This document shows positions 1-10,429 of a DNA stretch of 10,429 nucleotides, piece after piece. The stretch spans positions 1-10,429 of the forward strand of contig JAHFAK010000088.1 of the NCBI GenBank assembly GCA_023250585.1. Direction: 5' to 3'. Position numbers and translations under genes: made by a program. The stretch's first letter is position 1. Each line of letters starts with the position of its first letter. Below the pieces are notes generated by a model, which ran no database searches, was not told the DNA's origin, and saw nothing but the letters and a program-made list of their open reading frames with translations. The DNA comes from Deltaproteobacteria bacterium (GTDB taxonomy: Bacteria > Bdellovibrionota_F > JAHFAK01).

Positions 1-1672
1 TAATAGCAGTAAAAGAAAAACGTTTGTTCTTCATTTGTTTATTCTTTAATTCATTCAAGGTCTCATAAATTTTATGGATATCGTAAGGTCGTCCATCAAG
101 GGGAAGATAGAATGTATGAATAGAGTGTTGACCATTGTGGTTGGTGAAAAAGTTCCCTCCATACGCTTCAATTATTTCACGAGGAATAGAAAGAGAATGA
201 CTTAACAATGAAAGTTCAGGAAAAAAACTATCATACGAGAATCGATCGAATGTTTTGTTTTGCTTTTCAGTTTTAATAGTGAAGCATATAAAAGAATTAC
301 GTAAAAAGTATGCTTTATTTTTGAAAATTTCTTGAATATTTTCTAATTTGAGTTCTTTAGCATCAGTGAGTTCAACATGCATCTCAATTGAACTGTGAGG
401 CTCTTGATTGCGTATATTTTGATCGAAGAGAGAAATAAAAATGCGCATAAAGTCGTCATAATGACCAAAGAGAGACAGGTTGCTTTCTATTTTTGGTATA
501 ACAGTAATGGATTTTTTATTGAGCTCTGGTTCGAAGTAACTGATAACTTCATGAATGAGTTTTTCTATCTTAATGAGAGCTTGTGGTTGTTCTAAACTTT
601 GCACGCGTTGTGCTGCCTTAAGAAGATGCGTAGAAACTGTCTGGAGATGTTTCATTGTTTTTTCTATATGGGTAAAATTTTCTGCTTCTCTACTTTGGAG
701 AGACAGAGCTTTTTTTAAAGTATCCAGATGAGTTTCTGCCAGTGAAAGTGGTGTTTGTAATTCTTGAGCACACATATGAAGAAGAGTATTTTTTGAGGCG
801 TCAGAATTTTCTAGATGTATTTTTTCATCCATCAATTTTTTTATTCGTAAAACATATTCAAGATTACGAGATACTTCTTGAATGATTGCATAAAAAAATC
901 GTACATCATGTTTTTCAAATTTTTTCCCCGAAGCGAGCTCAACTAATCCATATGGTAAATCATCAGATGCAAGAATGGGAAGAGTAAGATACGTTAATTT
1001 TTCTTTCGCGAGGTCATTTCTTTCTTTTGAGGAAACTTCACTTGTTGTAATTAATAAATCTTCAAATCTATATTCCTTTTGAAGAAGGTTCTGATATGAA
1101 CTTAAAATTCTTTCGAGGTACGCTTTGATATCTTTTTCTTTGAGGTGTCCTCTTAAGATCACATTAGTTTTAACTTGTGTCTTTTCACGTATCAAAAGAG
1201 TAGCAATAGAAAATGGGAGATAATCGATAATCCTTTTTTTGAGAAGTTCTATAGCTTCCCGTGGGTCAAAATTTTTGAGAGGTTCTGTTGCCAATTGAAA
1301 AAGAATGTTTCGTTCATATTCATTCATGTATACAGAAAAAAGCTCATCGACTTTTGTCGTAATTGCACAGCGATCGTCTTTTACATAGAGATTTGTTATT
1401 CCTAATGAGCGAAAATCTTCAAGGTCCTTTAATGTAGTTCCTACAATAATAAGTTGTGCTGTGTGATTCTCTTGAATGATCTCGGTCACTATTTTGAGAG
1501 CTCGTTTATAATTGATAGTTGCATCAATAATTATGCAGAAGCTTTCTTTGAGAAAAGGTCTAATGATTTCAAGCTCATATTTCTTGTTTGTCATAATTGA
1601 GTAAGAGGCATGAAACTCCTCGAAAAAGTGTTCCTCGGCAGCTTCAGTTATATAAAGGATATGCTTATTCAC
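1..1672 (-). CDS. Degenerate sensor histidine kinase-like protein (receiver-GAF-pseudoHisKA-pseudoHATPase), 3' end off window
   Basis: An uninterrupted minus-strand frame of 557 codons runs from a GTG at 1672 to the left edge, with no stop inside the window. No in-frame ATG lies upstream of the GTG; the first in-frame ATG is codon 27. Residues 1-105 look like a receiver domain: a beta strand HILYIT, then CIIID with D50 where the phospho-acceptor Asp sits, and LYVK with K98 where the conserved Lys sits. The acidic pair after strand 1 is weak (TEAAEE). Residues about 120-275 look like a GAF domain. Residues about 290-360 form a HisKA-like helical pair whose H-box reads AQELQTPL, with Q303 in place of the phosphorylated His. 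Residues about 370-530 resemble a HATPase fold, ending in IPREIIEAYGG (G505, G506). The N-box Asn positions are Ser and Gln, and no DxGxG box is visible. The domain calls come from motif alignment by eye. I infer a non-phosphorylating regulatory or scaffold protein. It is divergent from the gene at 1727, and the Shine-Dalgarno is weak (GGGAAG upstream of GTG). Confidence 0.82.
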   Translation of the reverse strand, partial: MNKHILYITEAAEEHFFEEFHASYSIMTNKKYELEIIRPFLKESFCIIIDATINYKRALKIVTEIIQENHTAQLIIVGTTLKDLEDFRSLGITNLYVKDDRCAITTKVDELFSVYMNEYERNILFQLATEPLKNFDPREAIELLKKRIIDYLPFSIATLLIREKTQVKTNVILRGHLKEKDIKAYLERILSSYQNLLQKEYRFEDLLITTSEVSSKERNDLAKEKLTYLTLPILASDDLPYGLVELASGKKFEKHDVRFFYAIIQEVSRNLEYVLRIKKLMDEKIHLENSDASKNTLLHMCAQELQTPLSLAETHLDTLKKALSLQSREAENFTHIEKTMKHLQTVSTHLLKAAQRVQSLEQPQALIKIEKLIHEVISYFEPELNKKSITVIPKIESNLSLFGHYDDFMRIFISLFDQNIRNQEPHSSIEMHVELTDAKELKLENIQEIFKNKAYFLRNSFICFTIKTEKQNKTFDRFSYDSFFPELSLLSHSLSIPREIIEAYGGNFFTNHNGQHSIHTFYLPLDGRPYDIHKIYETLNELKNKQMKNKRFSFTAI

Positions 1673-1726: not shown

Positions 1727-3367
1727 ATGAAGAATTTTATTATAACGCAAGAAAAGATTAATGAGATCTTTGATACGTCTAACCCTGAGCATGAGTTCCA
1801 AAAACTTCCTATGCAGACAGCTTTTTATGCCATTAAAAGCCGTGGATTCGATGATGCTACGGATTTAATTACTCTTGCCAGCACGGAACAAATAATTGGT
1901 TTTCTTGACCTTGACTGCTGGGATAAAGACATAATTGATCTTCCCAATCTGTATCAGTGGTTATCCTTACTTACCCATACATCTGAAGATAAACTTGCTG
2001 AAGTGCTTAAAACAATTGACCTTGAAATACTTTCATATCTTTTTACCATGCATACAAGAATCTATCGTAATAATGATTCGCTTGATATTAGAATTTTACG
2101 CAATTTCTTTTATACCGCCGATAATCAATATGTTATTGAAGTGACGAAAAAAGATTATTTCGAAGTAATCAAAAAAATTGCATATAAAATTGGAGAGGAT
2201 GATGTAGCTTTTGTTGTAAATTTTTTTGAATCAATTGCGTATACTCTGCCGAGTACCCTTGAAGAGACGGCTTATGAACAACGTAAGGCTCGACTTGAAG
2301 ATCTTGGTATTATTGATTTTTATGATGCGCAAGATATTTATAGCTATGTAAAACCCACAGTCGGTGCTTCGCTTTCAGACGATACATCTTTTATTGAAAA
2401 AATTTCCGAAGAATCTATAATTTTTCTTCCAACAATATTCTGGGAATCCGGTCGAAAGGAAATGTTCTTAGACCAGGCTATAAGTCAAATCAATGACGTT
2501 GTTTTTTTGAATAGCTTAAAGACACAACTGTTGTATCTTGCCAATAAGCTTATCTCTGCTCATAGAATTAATTTTTCGTCGATGGAAAATATACAAGAAA
2601 GAATGGAGGAGCTTCGAGCTACCCTCAATTTAGGGCTTGAGTACGCATCTCAAGGAAACATTACGACTGCACAGGAATTACTGAAAAAAAAGAGCGTGAT
2701 GTATCTTTTTAAATTAGGATTTAGTTTAACCCTTGATCTCAAACGCCACATTCAATCCTTTCTCCCGTTATTTGTAATTTATTCACAAGCTCAACTCATC
2801 GATTTTTTCGGTGAACACTATGGTAGTATGATTAAAGGTTTGATGTATAAAAGGCCTGTTCTTTTATCGAGTAATGGAGAGATCCATTTTATTGATAGCA
2901 CAGCTGCCTATAAAAAAACATTTGATACTATTCATTATCTACAAAATATTTTAGAGTTTCTTACTCAACACGGAAATTTTAGTTTTACGTGGTTGAATAA
3001 ACTTGACCAAAAGCAATTAGGTTTAGTTGAAAAAAAGGAAATAACTTTTGTTCATATACTCAATACTTTAGTCGCGCAGCACATGCTTGCTAATCGGAAG
3101 AATAGTGAAGCGTTAGATGAACATGAGCTTTTTAAGTTTATTCGTATGGCACAGAGTTCGAATATTCGAGAAATTGTTAAAAATGAAATATGTTCGTTGA
3201 CGAATCATAATTTCTCTCCCGCATTTTATCATGATATACTCAAAGATTCGTTTGATATATTTACTGCAGAAATAAGAGATATAAAGCTTACAGATTTTGA
3301 GGCACGTTATGTTACGACAATTCTGGTAAAACCAAGAGAGGGGATCAATCCTCAAGACATTCAATAA
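1727..3367 (+). CDS. DUF6178-like protein of unknown function, 546 aa
   Basis: The 546-codon frame starts at ATG 1727; an upstream ATG at 1702 hits a stop in its own frame. The protein has no signal peptide or membrane segment, is rich in helix-forming residues, and is probably cytoplasmic. Landmarks are LPMQTAFYAIKSRG (residues 27-40), ASTEQIIGFLDLDCW (51-65) and ETAYEQRKARLEDLG (180-194). From memory these match DUF6178 proteins of deltaproteobacteria and relatives, which carry an 'LDLDCW..D..D...WL' segment and an 'EE.AY..R..RL.DLG' segment, and the length fits. No activity is known to me for that family, and I see no catalytic motif. It lies 54 bp from the divergent pseudokinase gene, so the two could share a control region. 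Its last 23 bp overlap the convergent MerR-like gene. The family call is by recollection; that the frame is coding is much more secure. Confidence 0.75.
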   Translation: MKNFIITQEKINEIFDTSNPEHEFQKLPMQTAFYAIKSRGFDDATDLITLASTEQIIGFLDLDCWDKDIIDLPNLYQWLSLLTHTSEDKLAEVLKTIDLEILSYLFTMHTRIYRNNDSLDIRILRNFFYTADNQYVIEVTKKDYFEVIKKIAYKIGEDDVAFVVNFFESIAYTLPSTLEETAYEQRKARLEDLGIIDFYDAQDIYSYVKPTVGASLSDDTSFIEKISEESIIFLPTIFWESGRKEMFLDQAISQINDVVFLNSLKTQLLYLANKLISAHRINFSSMENIQERMEELRATLNLGLEYASQGNITTAQELLKKKSVMYLFKLGFSLTLDLKRHIQSFLPLFVIYSQAQLIDFFGEHYGSMIKGLMYKRPVLLSSNGEIHFIDSTAAYKKTFDTIHYLQNILEFLTQHGNFSFTWLNKLDQKQLGLVEKKEITFVHILNTLVAQHMLANRKNSEALDEHELFKFIRMAQSSNIREIVKNEICSLTNHNFSPAFYHDILKDSFDIFTAEIRDIKLTDFEARYVTTILVKPREGINPQDIQ

Positions 3368-3767
3368 TCGTTTCTAATTCTCTGCGCAAGTGAAGAAGAT
3401 TTCTTCGAGTACTTTCTTTTAAAGAATCAAACTCTTTGATTGTTTTTTCATAGGAAAGTTTAAAGGCGGCATTTGGTTCTTGAACTTTCTTTTCTTCTCG
3501 ATGATCGCTTTCAAGTTGCTTCTTCGCACCTGCCAGAGTAAAGCCTTGTTTGTAAAGCAGTTCTTTAATACCGATGAGTTTACTAATCCCCTTTTTATCG
3601 TAGATACGTTGATTGGTTGATGTCTTTTGAGTTTTAATGTGAAATTCATGTTCCCAAAAACGAAGCACGGAAGTCTTGACCTCTAAGAGCTCAGCGACCT
3701 CTCCGATTTTATAATACATTTTATGCGGATTTAGCTGTTTTTCTGTTGCGAGTGCTTCAAATTGCAT
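3345..3767 (-). CDS. MerR-family DNA-binding regulator following rplT, 140 aa
   Basis: Residues 17-86 form a MerR-type winged helix-turn-helix: YYKIGEVAELLEV (18-30), then SVLRFWEHEF, then the wing NQRIYDKKG, then IKELLYKQGFTLAGAKKQL. No metal-binding Cys set is visible. The C-terminal part (about 105-140) is charged and Leu-containing and may form the dimer coiled coil typical of MerR proteins. The effector and targets cannot be read from the sequence. The ATG at 3767 lies 7 nt after the rplT stop, which argues for cotranscription. Neither this start nor the alternative Met17 (3719) has a clear Shine-Dalgarno, so the start is uncertain. In many bacteria, including deltaproteobacteria, pheS and pheT follow rplT and a MerR gene of this type comes later; here the MerR gene follows directly. 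The 3' end overlaps the convergent gene by 23 bp. Confidence 0.9.
   Translation of the reverse strand: MQFEALATEKQLNPHKMYYKIGEVAELLEVKTSVLRFWEHEFHIKTQKTSTNQRIYDKKGISKLIGIKELLYKQGFTLAGAKKQLESDHREEKKVQEPNAAFKLSYEKTIKEFDSLKESTRRNLLHLRRELETIIECLED
3425..3448 (+). terminator. Possible intrinsic terminator for the 1727..3367 gene, inside the opposing merR-like gene
   Basis: On the plus strand AATCAAA (3425-3431), a CTC loop and TTTGATT (3435-3441) form a perfect 7-bp hairpin. It is followed by G and six T (3443-3448), about 58 nt after the stop at 3367. The stem has only one G-C pair, so it would be weak. Its position after a gene with no other terminator in view is the main support. It could equally be a chance palindrome within the opposing coding sequence. 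Confidence 0.3.
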
Positions 3768-3774
3768 AGTTTAA

Positions 3775-4128
3775 TTATAAAACACTTTGTGCTTTTTTTA
3801 CAAGTTCTCCAAAACCTTTCTGATCGTGAATAGCGATTTCAGAAAGCATCTTTCGGTTGAGGGTAATATTTGCTTTATTTAAGCCATGCATAAAATTGGT
3901 ATAGTTGATTCCCAATGTTCGGCAAGCAGCTCCAATACGAGTAATCCAAAGCTGGCGAAAATTTCTCTTGCGTTGTTTACGGCCTGCATATGCATAAATC
4001 CATCCCTTTTCAACAGCTTCTTTTGCTGTTTTGAAAAGTCGATGTTTTGCGCCTCTATATCCTTTTGCAGCTTTTAAATATTTTTTACGTCTTTTTACGC
4101 CTTTTACTCCACGTTTAATTCTTGGCAT
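3775..4128 (-). CDS. rplT: Large-subunit ribosomal protein bL20
   Basis: This 117-aa, strongly basic protein is full length for bL20, which binds 23S rRNA early in 50S assembly. Recognisable segments are the N-terminal MPRIKRGV, KAAKGYRGAKHRLFKTAKEAV, the YAGRKQRKRNFRQLWITRI block and the C-terminal GLNKANITLNRKMLSEIA. The start at 4128 has a good Shine-Dalgarno, AAGGAG, about 7 nt upstream. It lies downstream of rpmI in the usual infC-rpmI-rplT order, but 74 bp away instead of a few bases; the gap contains a palindromic repeat. In enterobacteria bL20 represses its own operon by binding the mRNA leader, but I see no clear equivalent structure here. Confidence 0.98.
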   Translation of the reverse strand: MPRIKRGVKGVKRRKKYLKAAKGYRGAKHRLFKTAKEAVEKGWIYAYAGRKQRKRNFRQLWITRIGAACRTLGINYTNFMHGLNKANITLNRKMLSEIAIHDQKGFGELVKKAQSVL

Positions 4129-6908: not shown

Positions 6909-6982
6909 TAGGCACAGACGGGCTCGAACCGACGACCTCTACCACGTCAAGGTAGCGCTCTAGCCAACTGAGCTATGTGCCT
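6909..6982 (-). tRNA. tRNA-Val (anticodon GAC)
   Basis: The 74-nt cloverleaf reads on the minus strand. The acceptor stem AGGCACA/TGTGCCT has 7 pairs. The D stem is GCTC/GAGC with GG in the loop. The anticodon stem CTACC/GGTAG holds the loop TTGACGT, giving anticodon GAC, which decodes the Val codons GUC and GUU. The T arm carries TTCGAGC; its stem pairs except for a T50-T64 mismatch. The discriminator is A at 6909 and no CCA is encoded. It sits 24 nt upstream of thrS on the same strand with no terminator between, so it probably heads the thrS operon transcript and is cut out by RNase P and 3' processing. Confidence 0.97.
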
Positions 6983-9003: not shown

Positions 9004-10429
9004 TTATTCTGAAGCTTTAATTTTCCATACATGAACAATAGGATCCTCTCCGTTAGATTGGACGACATACAAAAGACCTTGTCTTTTGTCAAAGGTAGCG
9101 GCACCCATCGTATAGCTACAAATAGGGAAAAAAACATCGGTTATTGCAAAAGTTGCATAGGGAAGAACTTCTTGGGTTTCTTTTTTTCCTTCCGCTACGA
9201 GGGCAAGTTCTGCAGGATCATAGAGAAAAAACTCAGCTGCATATGGATAACAATGGTAGCCTTTTCCGCTGTCGCAGGGGTCATTGCATGCTTCAGGAGT
9301 TCCATAGCAGTCCTCTCCAAGCGCTTTTCGACCGGCAAAGAGCACCGCCGATTTCTCCTGTGATTCAATCCATACGGCACCTTCCCATACATCACAGGCG
9401 CTCCATTCAGGAAAGTATTCGGCTCCATTATTTGGTGGATAATAGAGAAGGACGTTACTTGATAATTCTGTAGTATTTGCAAGATTACTATCAGCCGGTG
9501 GAGGCAGAACGGCAAAAAGAGCAGGACCGTGACTATTCCCCGCATTACCGGCTCCATTGGCTTTTCCTGTTCCAATATATTTGCCGGGAACATACTCGTC
9601 GGCCCAAGCTTTAGGAATTTCGAGCATATAATTTGCTGTCTTTTTTTGATGATAGAGTGGATCTCCGTATGGACCTATGTGCCAAATTCCTTGGGCTTGT
9701 GGATGAGCTATAGTAAGTTGTGACCGCCCATGTGTTGCATAATCATTTTCATTGAGAGGCTGGACAGAATAGTATTGAAAGAAGCTCCAATATATAAGAT
9801 TGTCCCATGGGGCATAGAGGAGTCCGCCAAATACATCAAGATCATCGGCCATAACTGTGTCTTTCAGCCCTCCCGTAATATCAGCAAAATTTTGAAGTTG
9901 TGTTGCTCGCGGAAGATCCTTGATATTCTTATTGAGCGAAATAATAGGAGCGGGAATAGATGCTTCACCAACGAGATTATCATACACATGACTTGAACCA
10001 AAGAGCGATCCCGGATGTCCATCATCATTTCCATTCGGATCTCCCTGAGGATAGAACGTCAAAGCATATGCTCCATATCCCCACCGAGAGCCTCCCTGTG
10101 TTCCTTGAGGAAATAAGAATGCGCCTTCATATATCAGATCTTCAGGTTGCAAAAGGCGAGATTTCTTGGGCTCTTCTGCTGTTTCTTCTTGTATATCCGC
10201 TGATTGTTTTTCGGGATAAACAATAGGCGATCCACACCCTTCAGGACAAGAGCAAATGCCGTGTTCGTCTATACATGAATTTTGAGAATTGTTGTTATTT
10301 GTCGGCTTCACCTCGATGTCTGGTGAATTCAGGGAGTCGAGAGTCTCTTCAGAACTTGTTGTGCCTAGAGAATTTTCTGGAATTTTATCATCTTCACTAC
10401 TAAGACAAGAAATGTTTAAAACTATTATA
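9004..10429 (-). CDS. Probable lipoprotein with a beta-propeller-like domain, 5' end off window
   Basis: The frame is open from the stop at 9004 to the right edge (474 codons), so the true start lies outside; the GTG at 10311 is internal. The first visible residues, IIVLNISC (Cys codon 10405-10407), look like the end of a lipoprotein signal peptide, although Asn at -3 is not the classic lipobox. A Ser/Asp/Glu/Thr-rich linker follows, then an EGF-like Cys cluster (SCIDEHGICSCPEGCG), then a large domain rich in Gly, Tyr and Trp. The domain opens with LIYEGAFLFPQGTQGGSRWGY, contains GNSHGPALFAVLPP and a second Cys cluster (EDCYGTPEACNDPCDSG), and ends LLYVVQSNGEDPIVHVWKI. From memory the opening and the final '.GLLY.VQ..G..P.VHVW' recur in secreted bacterial proteins that look like beta-propellers. 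I see no catalytic motif. The role is unknown; surface binding or display is a guess. Confidence 0.83.
   Translation of the reverse strand, partial: IIVLNISCLSSEDDKIPENSLGTTSSEETLDSLNSPDIEVKPTNNNNSQNSCIDEHGICSCPEGCGSPIVYPEKQSADIQEETAEEPKKSRLLQPEDLIYEGAFLFPQGTQGGSRWGYGAYALTFYPQGDPNGNDDGHPGSLFGSSHVYDNLVGEASIPAPIISLNKNIKDLPRATQLQNFADITGGLKDTVMADDLDVFGGLLYAPWDNLIYWSFFQYYSVQPLNENDYATHGRSQLTIAHPQAQGIWHIGPYGDPLYHQKKTANYMLEIPKAWADEYVPGKYIGTGKANGAGNAGNSHGPALFAVLPPPADSNLANTTELSSNVLLYYPPNNGAEYFPEWSACDVWEGAVWIESQEKSAVLFAGRKALGEDCYGTPEACNDPCDSGKGYHCYPYAAEFFLYDPAELALVAEGKKETQEVLPYATFAITDVFFPICSYTMGAATFDKRQGLLYVVQSNGEDPIVHVWKIKASE

Follow-up and report, generated by a model that had tools for sequence, protein, structure and literature searches.

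The gene that opens the window (the whole stretch of 10,429 bp that was analysed, which is the complete contig C2 from a draft genome of 2.24 Mb) is well supported as encoding a pseudo-histidine kinase. As far as can be read from the sequence, its product has the phospho-acceptor His and all of the ATP/Mg-binding motifs replaced, while the residues that mark the kinase fold are kept. The most economical reading is that of a docking protein gated by its receiver-like and probable GAF regions; its main rivals are a phosphatase gated likewise and an inhibitor that heterodimerises with a kinase. The features on which these statements are based are collected in Table 1.

Table 1. Features of the pseudo-histidine-kinase gene and of its divergent neighbour, in window coordinates
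Feature	Position	Strand	Basis
Pseudo-histidine-kinase gene, 5' part	2..1672	-	GTG start at 1672; 557 of 644 codons in the window
Receiver-like domain, residues 1-115	1328..1672	-	Single-sequence AF2, Foldseek
T9-E10 at the receiver acidic-pair position	1643..1648	-	End of strand 1
D50, phospho-acceptor Asp position	1523..1525	-	End of strand 3
K98, conserved receiver Lys position	1379..1381	-	End of strand 5
Divergent GAF domain (probable), residues 119-270	863..1318	-	hhalign; best genome matches are GAF-HK proteins
DHp (HisKA-like) helical hairpin, residues 290-360	593..805	-	Alignment and AF2 model
Gln303 (CAA) at the phospho-acceptor His	764..766	-	Column is H in 17/17 kinases
E304-L-Q-T307, H-box ExxT retained	752..763	-	Alignment; role of Thr from PMC3510030
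CA (HATPase-like) domain, residues 362-528	89..589	-	AF2 model and structural match
Lost N-box, N to S414 and N to Q418	419..433	-	N in 17/17, both columns
Lost G1 box, D,G,G to F461,C463,T465	278..292	-	D,G,G in 17/17
Lost G2 box, three Gly to L489,S491,S493	194..208	-	G in 17/17, each column
C-terminal extension start, residues 529-557	2..88	-	Residues 558-644 lie on contig C88
Divergent neighbour, DUF6178 protein	1727..3367	+	Pfam E 1.2e-96; 54 bp from the GTG start

A kinase core without catalytic residues

The kinase core can be recognised by several types of sequence comparison. The Pfam HisKA and HATPase_c families match the protein below their curated cut-offs only, NCBIfam kinase models match residues 278-445 with a best E of 9.9e-10, and a profile built from 17 canonical kinases aligns to residues 283-525 with 75 bits. 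Since the seeds of this last profile were selected for their similarity to the pseudo-kinase, it is the NCBIfam matches that provide independent evidence for the core.

In the alignment with the 17 kinases all ten catalytic columns are changed (H303Q, D404H, N414S, N418Q, D461F, G463C, G465T, G489L, G491S and G493S); nine of these columns are invariant in the 17 kinases, and the D404 column is Asp in 16 of them. The original prediction of a glutamine at the H-box His, of Ser and Gln at the two N-box Asn positions and of a missing DxGxG is confirmed in this way, and its claim that all catalytic elements are lost is borne out to a larger extent, as D404 and the G2 glycines have also disappeared. 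Residues marking the fold are retained, namely E304, P308, L309, L351, F475, F478, L494, G506 and P524. The H-box ExxT (E304 and T307), which had not been mentioned before, is retained too. In the HisKA motif H-E/D-x-x-T/N, phosphatase activity depends on the T/N residue and kinase activity on the acidic one, neither residue being required for the other activity (PMC3510030). The loss of motifs is not a habit of the lineage, because each of the 13 further kinase cores in the genome still has its His, its two N-box Asn and the glycines of G2. Neither the acceptor His nor any of the nucleotide-binding N, G1 and G2 boxes of a functional histidine kinase is found in this protein, and a HisKA/HATPase_c core is present as a fold, by sequence and fold similarity over both DHp and CA. 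The kept fold, the lost catalytic residues and the intact frame agree with a pseudo-histidine kinase of the DivL/RetS kind, which would in addition regulate a partner by binding. With the acceptor His and the ATP/Mg motifs replaced, ATP-driven autophosphorylation would not be expected.

The AF2 models cover the part of the protein that is encoded in the window. Prediction from the single sequence gave an overall pLDDT of 41.6, with low confidence in the kinase region. The second model was given 51 kinase cores as its alignment, most rows of which came from a tighter five-kinase alignment, and it reached a pLDDT of mostly 85-95 over residues 361-440 and of 81-87 over residues 490-520 of the CA domain, with good confidence for the DHp hairpin; this model is pulled toward the kinase fold because its alignment consists of canonical kinases. 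Its CA domain superimposes on the catalytic domain of ThkA with Z 18.9, 144 aligned residues and an rmsd of 1.8, and further structural matches are DivL (4q20, Z 18.0) and RetS (6dk7, Z 18.2). Foldseek and VIA-align searches with the kinase-aligned model return histidine kinases, RetS, DivL and LvrB among them, and the first Foldseek match is LvrB, a REC-DHp-CA kinase that aligns along the entire model. Structure prediction, which had been suggested as a check, does produce the DHp and CA folds, with an alignment built from kinases that favours such a result. The proposal of a kinase-dead protein with a HisKA/HATPase fold is supported by the NCBIfam matches, the alignment, AF2 and the structural matches.

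The N-terminal regions and the C-terminal extension

In the single-sequence model, residues 1-100 form alternating strands and helices in a receiver-like arrangement, with blocks of pLDDT up to about 80, and the corresponding Foldseek search is led by RssB, RcsB, NarL and other receivers, although weakly (best E 0.011). Pfam returns no Response_reg match in the N-terminus up to E 10, the hhalign score against receivers is not above that of shuffles and the sequence comparison with them is not significant, so that it is the predicted fold that suggests a receiver. The D50 and K98 of the original prediction are present, at the end of strand 3 and of strand 5 respectively. However, to call the receiver intact was an overstatement, because Thr-Glu stands at the acidic pair and the conserved Thr/Ser column corresponds to G78 or T79. 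By its residues, the domain would be a partly degenerate receiver, and with such an acidic pair its phosphorylation is uncertain.

A GAF domain in residues 119-270 is weakly supported. The region scored 22.1 over 127 columns in hhalign against a profile of 26 GAF sequences, a match along nearly the whole domain whose score none of 400 shuffles equalled, but with a probability of 10.6% only, and the best genome matches of the pseudo-kinase are GAF-HK proteins. It has no Pfam or HMMER match and is of low confidence in the kinase-aligned AF2 model. The GAF input of the original prediction has the same weak support.

The C-terminal extension comprises about 115 aa, lies mostly outside the window and matched nothing in family searches. 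A GGDEF domain was considered for it, given a likeness by eye to the tail of a kinase on contig C6, and found no support from hhalign or from pairwise shuffles. The C6 kinase itself (C6:15770-16903; L192:6747-7976, minus strand) looks active, with HELRTP and GTGLGL motifs, and carries after its CA domain a fused GGDEF-like domain with EGEEF in place of the GGDEF motif.

The gene, its context and its relatives

The frame is open on the minus strand from 1672 to 2, preceded by the sequence GGGAAG 7 nt upstream of the GTG, and it is interrupted by the contig end and not by a stop codon. Contig C88 ends in an exact copy of the first 120 bases of C2, and on it the frame extends by another 87 codons. 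The full protein appears to have 644 aa through this join, for which the evidence is the 120-bp overlap. The 557 codons counted originally are indeed open, but they belong to a longer protein that the contig end had cut. The codon usage of the gene (LLR per codon 0.068) falls within the values of 0.045-0.116 of the reference genes of the genome, as do its GC contents of 0.46, 0.27 and 0.26 at the three codon positions; among the other frames, one reverse frame scores 0.017, and the remaining two reverse frames and both forward ones have scores below 0. The chance of 644 open codons at 33% GC is about 1e-21.

The next gene on C88, a radical-SAM-like ORF, is convergent to the pseudo-kinase gene, which therefore appears to be monocistronic and without an adjoining response regulator. 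On the other side, the region of the divergent starts of the pseudo-kinase and DUF6178 genes showed no sigma-70-like promoter. A search of DUF6178 neighbourhoods in other genomes gave no gene similar to the pseudo-kinase. DUF6178 itself scores above the family cut-off in 21 of the 241 genomes searched, and the papers searched make no mention of the family; in the genome G009 (L056) its gene adjoins an infC-like gene, and in the window it lies near infC-rplT. A MerR-type gene (window 3345-4128) directly follows rplT. In many of the loci retrieved with ThrS the same MerR-type gene is placed about 5 kb farther from thrS, which leaves space for other genes, usually pheST. A tRNA gene (Rfam; window 6909-6982, minus strand) lies just upstream of thrS, and a 474-aa open frame without a Pfam match (window 9004-10428) runs off the contig with a GC content of 0.44, compared to about 0.33-0.39 in most other genes checked.

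Orthologues were sought in 98 and in 386 relatives, in a collection of genome contigs, in 32 genomes (31 of which are MAGs retrieved with ThrS), in the G009 phylum and in viral contigs, and none was found; the matches returned were generic kinase-like proteins of 17-29% identity. The two best of them (L308 and L309) are kinases in which a GAF domain accompanies normal H, N and G boxes. G001, the one further member of the class among the genomes searched, has no match, and two single-kinase scans were also negative. Relatives by ThrS are for the most part MAGs of deltaproteobacteria and Nitrospirae, with 55-63% identity. Within its own genome, a protein search for a closely similar kinase returns the pseudo-kinase gene alone. 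The pseudo-kinase is thus one sequence in one draft genome, and we infer that the gene is maintained from its open frame and its genome-typical codon usage, the two observations that sustain the original statement that it is maintained and not decaying.

Several other signalling proteins of the genome deserve a mention. Four paralogous kinases on contigs C101, C153, C102 and C5 (L173, L179, L177 and L178) have HD-x-x-S H-boxes and C-terminal receiver-like domains with the common motif SDYEL.GE..TGLD; the receiver-like part of the C101 protein reaches a weak Pfam score only. Two paralogues of about 930-1050 aa on C14 and C91 (L181 and L180) have two receivers and then a helical tail behind the kinase core; in this tail FHDMKKLH and FHDLKKPH resemble an H-box or a phosphotransfer motif. 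An NtrC-like regulator on C3 (L194:4035-5411, plus strand) has a receiver without the usual acceptor Asp (VICGEEV) and matches Response_reg with an E of 0.005 only.

Proposed function and alternative explanations

We think that there is about an even chance that the protein is a pseudo-histidine kinase which is gated by its receiver and GAF regions and acts by binding other proteins. In the predicted order of receiver-like domain, probable GAF, DHp hairpin, CA and C-terminal extension, the receiver and/or the GAF would sense an upstream state, and this state would alter the coiled DHp stem. The surface of the DHp might then dock a partner, either a phosphorylated response regulator or the DHp of another kinase, and the docking would set the activity of that partner. 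With no partner gene adjacent, the partner would be encoded elsewhere in the genome, in which 18 receiver domains above the Pfam cut-off and the 13 other kinase cores are candidates. By analogy with DivL and RetS, a phosphorylation-sensing or scaffolding role is plausible, and dead kinases that act by binding have precedents in DivL (PMC4211667), RetS (PMC5992135) and the ChrS pseudokinase (PMC9491836).

The retained E304 and T307 suggest another possibility, in which the protein would be dead as a kinase and competent as a phosphatase, its DHp dephosphorylating a response regulator through the ExxT under the control of receiver and GAF; RetS, with its degenerate HATPase, is a transmitter phosphatase via HExxT (PMC5992135). 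We consider this rather unlikely. Here the acceptor His is lost, unlike in RetS, and E and T are so frequent in other HisKA sequences that the two retained residues may be due to chance or to structural needs; moreover, DivL, in which a CA fold is present and the His absent, is inactive both as a kinase and as a phosphatase (PMC4211667). A related proposal, that of an ATP-free regulator with phosphorylation of its own receiver as the input and either dephosphorylation by the ExxT or reading of a phosphorylated regulator by the DHp as the output, seems to us equally doubtful. The DHp might instead pair with that of an active kinase and block or modulate it, as RetS does with GacS. The modelled DHp hairpin, the RetS chains among the top structural matches and the inhibition of GacS autophosphorylation by the RetS core (PMC5992135) speak for such a heterodimer, which we nevertheless hold to be unlikely, as the search of its own genome finds no closely similar kinase.

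Two further explanations concern the gene more than its mode of action. It could be an ex-kinase under relaxed selection in which a stop codon has yet to arise, since changes affect every catalytic motif as well as part of the receiver pocket and no orthologues were found that would show constraint. Against such decay stand the 644 open codons, far beyond chance at this GC content, with their genome-typical codon usage, and the persistence of fold residues after the loss of ten catalytic columns, which points to a long residence without stop or frameshift; decay is in our opinion improbable. An activity by a non-canonical route, with another acceptor residue and another nucleotide site, could invoke the remaining CA-like fold and N419, one residue past the lost N-box Asn. 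As no G1 or G2 glycine and neither N-box Asn is retained, and as no HisKA enzyme is known to us that can dispense with all of these residues, this is the explanation to which we would give hardly any credit.

Comparison with known systems

The closest precedents for the proposed docking protein are kinases that have been disarmed to different extents. DivL of Caulobacter crescentus, whose kinase fold lacks the His, senses a phosphorylated regulator without being active as a kinase or phosphatase (PMC4211667). It resembles the pseudo-kinase in the replaced acceptor His, in the structural match and in the role proposed here, that of a sensor of a phosphorylated regulator. However, DivL has PAS domains, a Tyr in place of the His and its N, G1, F and G2 boxes kept, whereas the pseudo-kinase has lost the His together with N, G1 and G2 and has a receiver and a probable GAF as its input part. 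That the protein could be an orthologue of DivL was ruled out by Gln303, by the lack of a PAS family match and by the lost N and G boxes.

RetS of Pseudomonas aeruginosa lacks the G-boxes, keeps the His and the HExxT, and inhibits GacS in three ways, one of them as a transmitter phosphatase (PMC5992135). It shares with the pseudo-kinase the degenerate HATPase without G-boxes and the ExxT, besides being a structural match, and differs from it in its H-box His and in its hybrid-kinase architecture with other domains; its partner, GacS, is also known. In LvrB of Leptospira, phosphorylation of the receiver reshapes the coiled stem and releases the CA domains (PMC13269768). The common point is the REC-kinase chassis, with an N-terminal receiver ahead of DHp-CA; LvrB is active (H161, D56), with the composition Rec-DHp-CA and without GAF or C-terminal extension (PMC13269768). 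The ChrS pseudokinase variant of Corynebacterium glutamicum, which arose from a frameshift in laboratory evolution and in which the acceptor His remains (PMC9491836), is likewise a catalytically dead histidine kinase and still acts on signalling; its laboratory origin and its His set it apart from the pseudo-kinase.

Judged by its residues, the pseudo-kinase is more completely disarmed than DivL and RetS as described in PMC4211667 and PMC5992135. Few bacterial pseudo-histidine kinases have been characterised, and the two best known have lost only part of the catalytic set, the His in DivL and the G-boxes in RetS. We think that a natural loss of the His and of the N, G1 and G2 boxes, with the fold and the ExxT kept, would help to separate scaffold binding from catalysis.
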